Virus record (IMG/VR): IMGVR_UViG_3300009466_000164
Coordinates: 1-21,338 of that record
Strand: one strand, 5' to 3'
Length of the DNA stretch: 21,338 nucleotides
Origin: a virus
Shown here: positions 183 through 2,272 of the stretch, piece after piece
Layout of the letters: each line of letters opens with the position of its first letter
How positions within the stretch are numbered: the stretch's first letter is position 1
Position numbers and translations under genes: made by a program
Notes under the pieces: model-generated
The model's input: only the letters and a program-made list of their open reading frames with translations
Database searches by the model: none
Told to the model about the DNA's origin: nothing

Positions 183-183
183 G

Positions 184-257
184 TCGGGATGAAAGGATTT
201 GAACCTTCGGCCCCCTGCTCCCAAAGCAGGTGCGCTACCAAACTGCGCCACATCCCG
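184..257 (-). tRNA. tRNA-Pro (anticodon UGG)
   Basis: The reverse strand folds as a canonical 74-nt tRNA. The acceptor stem CGGGATG pairs with CATCCCG, the D-arm is GGCGCAGTTTGGTAGCGC, the anticodon stem CCTGC/GCAGG closes the loop TTTGGGA, and the T-loop is TTCAAAT. Anticodon TGG reads CCA and probably other proline codons. The discriminator is A and no CCA end is encoded, so the host must add it. It is the last of two tRNAs after the terminase genes and should be on the same transcript. CCA is the commonest proline codon in the Pro-rich tail of the Fn3 protein at the other end of the window. Confidence 0.95.
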
Positions 258-260
258 GTA

Positions 261-388
261 GTTACAGACAGCGGCGACTCCATTTGCACGAAAGACGCTA
301 GAAACGACTCCAACGCTTTCAACCGACAGACTCGTTATAACGGGATATATTTATGTAACTAAACCATCCTAAGTTTGCTGCCTGTAAC
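261..388 (-). ncRNA. Candidate structured RNA between the two tRNAs
   Basis: The ends are a 12-base inverted repeat (377-388 and 261-272). Transcribed from the minus strand they form a 12-bp helix, GUUACAGGCAGC with GCUGUCUGUAAC, containing one G-U pair. The enclosed 104 nt holds a 13-bp helix at 290-320 (GAAAGCGUUGGAG, loop UCGU, UUCUAGCG, bulged U, CUUUC). It also holds a two-part hairpin at 343-369 (GGAU/AUCC enclosing UUUA/UAAA) and a weaker one between them (AACGA/UCG-UU). The wobble pairs become A-C mismatches if the plus strand is transcribed, so the fold favours the direction of the genes. Only 2 nt separate it from tRNA-Ile and 3 nt from tRNA-Pro. It has no tRNA cloverleaf and no tmRNA features. 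I do not know its function. Confidence 0.6.
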
Positions 389-390
389 CG

Positions 391-464
391 TAGGGCGGGT
401 GAGACTTGAACTCACGATCTTCACCTTATAAGAGTGACGCCTTCACCAACTTGGCCACCGCCCC
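391..464 (-). tRNA. tRNA-Ile (anticodon UAU)
   Basis: The reverse strand folds as a 74-nt tRNA. Acceptor GGGGCGG pairs with CCGCCCT (first pair G-U), the D-arm is GCC-AAGTTGGTGAA-GGC, the anticodon stem TCACT/GGTGA encloses CTTATAA, and the T-arm GTGAG/CTCAC encloses TTCAAGT. The variable loop is short (AGATC), which rules out Leu and Ser types. Anticodon TAT reads AUA directly. Many bacteria instead read AUA with a CAU tRNA modified to lysidine. AUA is frequent in this AT-rich phage, so the tRNA probably helps supply that codon. No CCA is encoded. It begins 17 nt after the terL stop codon. Confidence 0.92.
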
Positions 465-481
465 TTGTACTTACTACTATA

Positions 482-2272
482 TTAAATTATGTCCATACTG
501 TCAATAGCATTTTGTAAAGCAGGCGGAATAATTAATTCGCTGTTCCTTTTCCTACCCATCCTTAATTTTAACTCTTCATCACTATCTTGTTCAAGCATAT
601 CGTAGGAATATATTTTTATTTCTTGGTCGTTCTCTCTACGAGAGCGAGCAATCGCATTATAAATCGCCCCGCAAACTGCGTCAGCCAAGTCCTTGCTACC
701 CTTTCTGGGGTGGTCAACTTTATCACCGCGTATCCTTAATTGCAACAATTCATCTATTAATAATTTTAATTCTGGTCCATAGACACGCTCTTCTGTAACT
801 AGCAATGCCATGTCCTCATAATGTTTTTTAGCAACTGATAGTAATTCTGTATTGATCCCATAATGCTTTAATTGCTGCATCATATCGTGAGAATTCCATC
901 GGTCAAACGTGACTACACTTAAATTAAATCCTCGCTCACGCAATTCTATAATATAATCTTTTACCTCAGACAAATCCACGCTAGTCGTAGATGTTGGCTG
1001 CCAATATCTTACTGCGTCTACGATTACCCTAGGGGCTGCCTCTGTCATTGTGCCAGCGATCTTCATCTGCACCCAGCCCTCAATATGGGCCATGGCTACA
1101 GCACAATTATCATGCTTCTGGGCTAAGTCAACATGTAGAAAGTATTGCCTACCTTCTTCTGGCTTAAACCAATCAGCGAATCTTCCACCACTATCTACTG
1201 CAAACTTAGGGCTGCTGAATGCCTTTTCAATTTTTTCGCGTGACTTAAAGAACGCATCTGTTGCTTCTGGTGGCATACAAGCAAATCTCATTAGAGAGTC
1301 AAGTGGGTCATCATAAAATGCAATCGTGAAGTCTTGAATTTTTCTTGTTGGGTTAAATTCCCATGTAGGTCTTTTAAGGGCAAATATATGTGGGAGGGCA
1401 TAGGATATAATATGGTCTTCCTCCCACTCAATTGTAAATTCATTACCGTCATGCCCATCTGGAAGATCTGGATCTATTTTAAGTGTGTGTGACTTTACGA
1501 TTGTTTCTTTTTCTGCCACAGCATCATTATATTTTTGCTGAATAAAGTCATTCTTAAATCTTGGGAAGGAAAGCATGATTACTTTGCCAAAGTCTGGGAA
1601 TCGTGAATTTACAGATGCTCTATACATCTTATAAATAGCAGCAGATGTTTTCGGGCTTTGTCTTCCTGTAGTGTTCTCTAGTTCAAAGCCTGATATTTCG
1701 TCAAGTACAGCAAGCATGACGTTATATCCTTCCCACGACTCTGCTTCTGAGTGTCCTGAGTGAACAGTTATTTCTTTATCAAATTCAATACTATTAGCCT
1801 TTGGTATGTACCTACCTTGGAACCAGGCTGATTTTTCAATGATACGCTTGAATCCTTTAAAGAATACCCTATTTGCCTGAACAGCGTTTATAGCAATGTT
1901 AATAATGTCAATGGAATCTCCTGGAGGCTTGCCATAATATTTTGCTGGATCTTTCAGGCACAGTAGGAGGTGGACAACATAGGCGCATCCAATAGTAGAG
2001 ATAAAATCCTTACCGCCGCCCTTGCCTACCTGAAGGATAACCTCCTTAGAAGTCTGGTTCCATCTCTTTACTCCCTCTTCTTCTCCTAGCCATTTAACTA
2101 GAGTTTCTTTTTTATAAATTTGGGTCATTGCCCTAATAGATTGATATTGATATTCAGAAAGAGGGGGTAGGTCTAGATAATCATTATTAGTTACAAATTC
2201 TTCTATGTCTGCAGGAACCTCTTCAAATTGGTCTCCATCTAGTGCATCTATAAAGTCACTAAAATCAATCAA
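482..2272 (-). CDS. terL: Terminase large subunit (packaging ATPase-nuclease)
   Basis: This 596-aa protein has the order expected of a phage DNA-packaging motor. The N-terminal ATPase has a P-loop GKGGGKD at residues 83-89 and a Walker B strand MLAVLDE at 186-192 ending in the catalytic Glu. The C-terminal RNase H-fold nuclease has Asp382 (HVDLAQ), Asp457 (VVTFDRW) and the Lys-Asp-Leu-Ala-Asp group at 527-531. It translocates DNA into the prohead and cuts concatemers. The P-loop has Asp where Ser or Thr is usual after the Lys. The start appears to be TTG: an in-frame TAG lies just upstream, no ATG occurs before residue 49, and the frame overlaps the terS stop by 8 nt, which suggests translational coupling. 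The tRNA genes follow directly. Confidence 0.95.
   Translation of the reverse strand: MIDFSDFIDALDGDQFEEVPADIEEFVTNNDYLDLPPLSEYQYQSIRAMTQIYKKETLVKWLGEEEGVKRWNQTSKEVILQVGKGGGKDFISTIGCAYVVHLLLCLKDPAKYYGKPPGDSIDIINIAINAVQANRVFFKGFKRIIEKSAWFQGRYIPKANSIEFDKEITVHSGHSEAESWEGYNVMLAVLDEISGFELENTTGRQSPKTSAAIYKMYRASVNSRFPDFGKVIMLSFPRFKNDFIQQKYNDAVAEKETIVKSHTLKIDPDLPDGHDGNEFTIEWEEDHIISYALPHIFALKRPTWEFNPTRKIQDFTIAFYDDPLDSLMRFACMPPEATDAFFKSREKIEKAFSSPKFAVDSGGRFADWFKPEEGRQYFLHVDLAQKHDNCAVAMAHIEGWVQMKIAGTMTEAAPRVIVDAVRYWQPTSTTSVDLSEVKDYIIELRERGFNLSVVTFDRWNSHDMMQQLKHYGINTELLSVAKKHYEDMALLVTEERVYGPELKLLIDELLQLRIRGDKVDHPRKGSKDLADAVCGAIYNAIARSRRENDQEIKIYSYDMLEQDSDEELKLRMGRKRNSELIIPPALQNAIDSMDII

Follow-up and report, generated by a model that had tools for sequence, protein, structure and literature searches.

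A covarying RNA family in actinophage tRNA arrays with complementarity to helix 69-71 of host 23S rRNA

The question raised by this locus is what lies between two neighboring tRNA genes of a phage, and what it might do there. The DNA analyzed, called the window hereafter, spans positions 1 to 21,338 of IMG/VR record IMGVR_UViG_3300009466_000164. Its gene content (terminase, RuvC, RecA, DNA polymerase III alpha, and DnaB) is that of a phage fragment, and the nearest cultured relatives of its terminase, at 57-63% in tblastn, are Stanwilliamsviridae phages of Streptomyces. A reading made from the sequence alone (the sequence-only reading) had proposed that the spacer between a tRNA-Ile and a tRNA-Pro encodes a new stable RNA, comparable to those of phage T4 and perhaps acting on host translation.

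A structured RNA between tRNA-Ile and tRNA-Pro

The cluster comprises the following features.

482..2272, minus strand: gene for the large subunit of terminase, which precedes the cluster of tRNAs and RNA element (tblastn); it served to find relatives
390..464, minus strand: tRNA-Ile(TAT), directly upstream of the RNA element (ARAGORN, Rfam)
258..389, minus strand: RNA element of about 132 nt, a member of class I (fold z score; match of covariance model R1 at 260-389)
377..389, minus strand: 5' strand of the closing helix P1, GGUUACAGGCAGC, pairing with 260-272
260..272, minus strand: 3' strand of P1, GCUGUCUGUAACU, pairing with 377-389
290..320, minus strand: long internal hairpin, a group-specific part of the Ile-Pro members (MFE)
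183..257, minus strand: tRNA-Pro(TGG), directly downstream of the RNA element (ARAGORN, Rfam)

ARAGORN confirmed that the element sits exactly between the two tRNAs, in a 132-nt gap (258-389). The tight flanking by tRNAs also stands, but with other spacings: P1 follows tRNA-Ile by 0 nt and precedes tRNA-Pro by 2 nt, in place of the 2 and 3 nt first given, and the closing helix, described as 12 bp, proved to be 13 bp long (389-377 with 272-260), with a G-U as its outermost pair. The MFE of 258-389 on the minus strand is -50.9 kcal/mol, a value that none of 200 shuffled sequences equaled (-30.6 +/- 3.4 kcal/mol, z = -5.97), whereas the plus strand reaches -27.1 kcal/mol (z = -1.42), so that the fold beats shuffles on the transcribed strand, as had been expected. 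The internal helix at 290-320 and the small hairpins of the sequence-only reading all appear in the MFE structure; the former is missing from most class I members outside the Ile-Pro group. Rfam 15, searched at E <= 10, returned for the window the two tRNAs, plus a sub-threshold match on the strand opposite tRNA-Ile, in keeping with the impression of an unfamiliar RNA, and the other class I members were likewise without a family match.

A covarying family in actinophage-like contigs

Relatives were collected from 80 loci with related terminases, in which every gap between neighboring tRNAs was listed. The same element is present in the Ile-Pro gap of close relatives, and a similar one, with the common core CUUAGGAUGnnUAUAGUUACAUAU, occupies Leu-Gly, Met-Gly, Gln-Gly, Leu-Gln, Gln-Ser, and Asp-Ser gaps of divergent phages. 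Pattern scans together with a closing-helix search brought this set, class I, to at least 67 distinct members in actinophage-like viral contigs. The class I genomes that were checked carry one copy each, a second pattern match in one of them (G002) being devoid of the UAGUUAC half. Class I RNAs share a P1 of 10-16 bp and free sequence, 13 bp long in the window, followed by the core CUUAGgAUGn(n)UAGUUACAUA, which the window contains from 355-373 onward.

Covariance model R1, built from 17 class I members, none of them of the Ile-Pro type, matches the window at 260-389 with 45.4 bits (E = 1.2e-6). Covariation in related phages, proposed earlier as a check, was found in every P1 pair of these 17 members: 12 of 12 pairs change on both sides while 99.5% of the cells are paired, and when all pairing partners in the structure are shifted by 1 to 3 columns, pairing falls from 97% to 15-46%. 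Within the Ile-Pro group, two-sided changes affect 6 of 13 P1 pairs (100% of P1 cells paired), and the core hairpin has one pair that goes from U-A to G-C (UUUA/UAAA to UGUA/UACA).

Some members (L065, L090, L108, and L111; L022, L027, and L028) are minimal forms of 69-80 nt that consist of P1 and the conserved segment described below as motif 1, with little else. A separate search for bacterial homologues among 84,980 genomes gave two pattern matches; neither has a P1, and we judged them to be chance. A mini-ORF in the core (AUG to UAG) was discarded because its reading frame is not kept among members, and so was a likeness by eye to the 23S GTPase center, which is lost in most of them.

Ends and production of class I RNAs

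The 5' end of class I RNAs lies within 6 nt of a tRNA in 53 of the 67 members (almost always at 0 or 2 nt), the 3' end within 12 nt of the next tRNA in 49, and both ends are near tRNAs in 43. Tight abutment of this kind would allow tRNA-processing enzymes to excise the RNA from the phage tRNA transcript. Among the 14 members lacking an upstream tRNA, 7 have a perfect TTGACA-18-TATAAT whose -10 box lies 6-7 nt before P1, and three more have promoter scores of 10-11 out of 12, compared with 10 at the 99th percentile and a maximum of 11 in shuffled flanks. In these stand-alone copies transcription from a putative promoter would thus begin with the first base of P1, and class I RNAs are presumably expressed. 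Two stand-alone copies (L017:6805-6904 and L042:6859-6959) lie directly before a gene with a Shine-Dalgarno sequence, where the RNA may be a 5' leader.

Since tRNA processing and a promoter are unrelated routes that would lead to the same 5' end, this agreement, taken with the covariation, makes the RNA real in the evolutionary sense. A chance fold of a functionless spacer has nothing but the short length of the element to recommend it, and it is already contradicted, to the point of having virtually no probability, by the fold z score of -5.97, the two-sided covariation throughout P1, and the promoters placed at P1. The proposal of a new stable RNA from a tRNA array is upheld by the P1 covariation, by ends kept across different tRNA gaps, and by the copies with their own promoters; that class I is a real family of stable RNAs is in our view nearly certain.

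The conserved core is antisense to 23S rRNA

The features that bear on the core are listed below.

355..373, minus strand: motif 1, CUUAGGAUGGUUUAGUUAC, aligned to the antisense of actinobacterial 23S 1910-1929
350..363, minus strand: hairpin UUUA-GUUACA-UAAA, whose loop presents the GUUAC part of motif 1; it shows a compensatory change
343..369, minus strand: helix P3, GGAU (369-366) with AUCC (346-343), enclosing the GUUACA hairpin (MFE)

Read as its reverse complement, the conserved class I core, CUUAGGAUGGU(U)AUAGUUAC, corresponds to positions 1910-1929 of actinobacterial 23S rRNA, from helix 69 (H69) to H70, the site of intersubunit bridge B2a, which is essential if the ribosome halves are to join. 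The window's motif 1 agrees with 19 of the 20 positions of that reverse complement, with one base missing (score 33). Streptomyces sp. BHT-5-2 and Arthrobacter sp. ERGS1:01 provided the 23S references, with positions converted to E. coli numbering by anchor. For all 67 class I members, the best local antisense match in the whole 4.5-kb actinobacterial rRNA locus starts at 1910. The mean score over the members is 31.1 for the antisense, as against 20.0 for the sense strand, 23.7 for the antisense of E. coli 23S, and 16.6 for that of 16S, and in 59 members none of 100 shuffles reached the observed antisense score.

The match is specific to actinobacteria. At this site Streptomyces and Arthrobacter read GUAACUAUAACCAUCCUAAGG and E. 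coli GUAACUAUAACGGUCCUAAGG, and motif 1 agrees with the actinobacterial variant (...AACCAUCC...), not with that of E. coli (...AACGGUCC...). Against E. coli 23S the antisense is weaker and partly mismatched (GGACC versus GGAUG), whereas against actinobacterial 23S it is near-exact; with the members rotated, 60 of 67 score best with the actinobacterial 23S, and patterns carrying GGACC for GGATG were found in 1 and 0 viral contigs, compared with dozens for GGATG. Hybridization energy, which alone is not decisive, places H69 best or among the best for several members, and for the window's RNA on Arthrobacter it ranks fifth of 896 hybridization windows. Since part of motif 1 lies in a hairpin with a compensatory change, some of its conservation serves structure; P3 is invariant within the Ile-Pro group.

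Separately, a single RNA with CUUAGGACC (L276:2506-2538, minus strand) scores 41.6 with E. coli-type 23S and 30.9 with actinobacterial 23S, and it is a possible case, one candidate so far, of an RNA tracking the 23S variant of its host.

A second motif at the level of the family

Two further segments of the window align with 23S rRNA in the antisense direction.

285..294, minus strand: motif 2, CUUUCGUGCA (family-level peak at 23S antisense 1966)
319..334, minus strand: possible third antisense segment, CGAGUCUGUCGGUUGA, weak (23S ~1990-2005; rotated alignment, Arthrobacter 23S)

After removal of P1 and motif 1, first 18 and then 21 non-redundant interiors were compared with both strands of 23S and 16S. 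They peak at 1966 on the antisense strand of 23S, 40 nt away from the target of motif 1. With 18 interiors this peak scores 14.7 in gapped alignment (next best 11.9) and 12.9 in ungapped alignment, against a maximum of 12.2 in 121 kb of unrelated DNA; with 21 interiors it reaches 13.7, against a maximum of 12.2 in 167 kb of control DNA. The common motif, UUCGUGCAG, also given as INDEPENDENTLY, has the shared sequence UUC(n)GUGCAG and maps to 23S 1961-1971. In the window, UUCGUGCA (292-285) is the reverse complement of 23S ~1961-1969, an 8-nt match partly buried in the internal helix. Taken singly, class I interiors without motif 1 are no more complementary than their shuffles (mean z 0.3); that of the window has z 1.9 with its best match elsewhere, and its third segment has no significance on its own. 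Motif 2 is therefore a statement about the family, resting on the family as a whole and on class III below, and since the large z values of rotated chains come mostly from motif 1, we do not claim the whole RNA as antisense.

Relatives with reversed motif order and cultured Streptomyces phages

A search for motif 2 placed before motif 1 retrieved RNAs in which the two stand the other way round, as they do in the antisense 23S itself; the order in class I and that in classes II and III are thus related by circular permutation. Class II RNAs are closed by P1 and lie beside tRNAs, the copy in L282 being located directly after a terminase like that of the window, and P1-closed RNAs without nearby tRNAs occur in L200 and L276. 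Class III RNAs end in an intrinsic terminator, with a putative upstream promoter in L246, L254, L284, and L286. Even without motif 1, the L246 RNA matches 23S 1961-2010 with a score of 36 (null 19.0 +/- 2.3), including GUUACGCCAUUCG; that of L254 also exceeds its null (42.1 versus 30.9 +/- 3.3), while most other class III members rely on motif 1. Some contain GGAAUU(U)CGC, complementary to 23S 1933-1942.

In Stanwilliamsviridae phages, an unannotated class III relative immediately follows the endolysin gene; matches to this region, part of which is endolysin sequence, occur in 127 Streptomyces records. Fifteen such loci were read: UUAGGAUG is present in all those checked except Faust, which has UUAGGGUG, and the UAGUUAC half has a mismatch or a missing base. 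Model R1 found no match in nine cultured phages, whose relative was reached only through class III, and the GenBank phage records that we read carry no annotation for the RNA.

The gaps between tRNAs of Streptomyces phages were considered as family members and rejected, since they are structured but without 23S complementarity and are a different thing; examples are the Pro-Pro and Gly-Gln spacers of Stanwilliamsviridae arrays (L155:5621-5804, L160:4588-4713, and L159:5162-5291). In close relatives of the window, the Gln-Gly gap (L007:7921-8281, L011:8200-8542, and L014:5620-5984), with 343-365 nt and -81 to -101 kcal/mol, is possibly another structured RNA.

Could class I be a structural RNA with some other role, such as protein binding, a decoy, a tRNA-array spacer, or a processing element, with its 23S likeness a relic of captured host rDNA? 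The hairpins do explain part of the conservation, and the class I interiors alone are without significant complementarity. However, the same 20-nt complementarity is kept in 67 divergent members whose closing helix is wholly rewritten, motif 1 tracks the actinobacterial variant, and both motifs are retained although their order differs between classes; we consider this alternative unlikely.

Possible action on the host ribosome

The most conserved segment of these RNAs being a near-exact antisense of host 23S, they probably work by base-pairing with the host ribosome. That the RNA works by pairing with 23S we regard as quite likely, and a phage RNA that acts by pairing with the intersubunit face of host 23S is, on balance, the best explanation of the data. 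The sequence-only reading, which had not seen the 23S complementarity, is strengthened by it in its suggestion of an action on host translation, whose effect would be as follows. The RNA, cut from a tRNA transcript or, in other phages, transcribed from a promoter of its own, would have its ends protected by the long closing helix, and its loops would offer segments complementary to 23S domain IV (motif 1 for 1910-1929, motif 2 for 1961-1971). It would pair with free or newly made 50S, where the intersubunit face is open, and pairing would block subunit joining or 50S maturation, so that phage protein would still come from the 70S ribosomes already present, with newly made host ribosomes barred from service. 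A block of 50S joining or assembly is the effect we favor, as a tentative proposal. Helix 69 is itself paired in the mature 50S subunit, so that the RNA could bind only a target that is opened or still immature; this point, the imperfect UAGUUAC half in the Streptomyces phages, and the need of phages themselves for ribosomes count against an explanation by 23S pairing.

Helix 69 forms an intersubunit connection (PMC7038079), and PNA directed against H69 stops E. coli growth (Kulik et al. 2017, cited in PMC7038079). Those growth-inhibiting oligomers share target and principle of complementarity with our proposal, but they are synthetic, as opposed to a natural, structured, and actinobacterial-specific phage RNA. 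Subunit association requires H70, which the actinobacterial toxin MazF-mt6 cuts in 50S, not in 70S (PMC5408214).

The best rival to a block of joining or assembly is that the RNA is a shield which pairs on both sides of the H70 loop (1930-1945) and guards free 50S from host toxins of the MazF-mt3/mt6 type, as the tRNAs of the array would likewise counter tRNA-cleaving toxins. MazF-mt3 and MazF-mt6, both from an actinobacterium, cut UUCCU in helix/loop 70 of 23S (PMC5408214), the GGAAUU(U)CGC of some class III members covers that cleavage site, and the location in tRNA arrays would fit. The H70 segment is covered in part of class III only, though, being short or absent in the window's RNA and in the majority of class I members, and these phages have no known host toxin; we consider a shield distinctly unlikely.

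The duplex on 23S might instead act as a guide or tag that recruits RNase III, another nuclease, or a modifying enzyme, leading to rRNA cleavage or modification. Interrupted pairing around unpaired bases characterizes guides such as snoRNAs, and H69 bears several modifications. Inspection of the aligned class I members revealed no box C/D or H/ACA boxes, however, and bacteria, to our knowledge, lack the partner proteins and enzymes of such guides. No co-conserved protein gene was identified, and Ro (TROVE, PF05731) gave no match in any of the 10 class I genomes or fragments tested. A guide function is very unlikely in our estimation.

Relation to known RNAs

The tRNA cluster of T4 encodes stable RNAs of unassigned function (species 1 and 2, RNA C and D). 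The likeness to these, drawn by the sequence-only reading, is one of position in a phage tRNA cluster; the host group is another one, and no homology was found, since Rfam gives no link and class I had no blastn match in 50,697 phage records. GOLLD/ROOL and the YrlA Y RNAs are further noncoding RNAs of phages or bacteria found near tRNAs. Class I RNAs had no Rfam match and are far smaller than GOLLD/ROOL; the Ro-binding GGUCCGA signature of Y RNAs is absent from the class I P1, whose sequence is unconstrained. As a separate observation, an RNA between tRNA-Gln and tRNA-Trp in Streptomyces phages Samisti12 (L159:5367-5493) and Riptide (L157:6381-6586) starts with UGGUCCGACUU, has a CGGACC strand that matches it, and resembles the Ro-binding stem of Y RNAs; both phages encode a TROVE/Ro-like protein.

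Class III resembles the trans-acting sRNAs of bacteria in its sigma70-like promoter, structured body, terminator, and complementary seed, but known sRNAs target mRNAs and the match here is to ribosomal RNA. The snoRNA-type guides (box C/D, H/ACA) of archaea and eukaryotes likewise have short loops complementary to rRNA, whereas the present RNA is phage encoded and without visible boxes. By analogy, its mode of action would be that of an antisense sRNA or, in a looser sense, of a snoRNA guide, and we claim membership of neither set. Among the RNAs of bacteria and phages, we are aware of none whose action depends on base-pairing with 23S rRNA, and a full-text literature search, thin on subscription journals, found no description of phage RNAs antisense to rRNA, so that an earlier description is possible.

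Implications for actinophage biology

Our overall proposal, which we put forward tentatively, is that actinophages possess a widespread natural family of antisense RNAs against host rRNA, rewired in motif order and unannotated in cultured Streptomyces phages, which, paired with helix 69-71, would stop the joining of new 50S subunits and so take over the host. It is readily testable, because many cultured Streptomyces phages have unannotated relatives downstream of their endolysin gene. If true, it would account for one sort of structured RNA found in the tRNA arrays of phages and explain why the RNA is retained through total rewriting of its closing helix; it would also make helix 69-71 a natural antisense target and add a way for phages to take over the host or to protect ribosomes.
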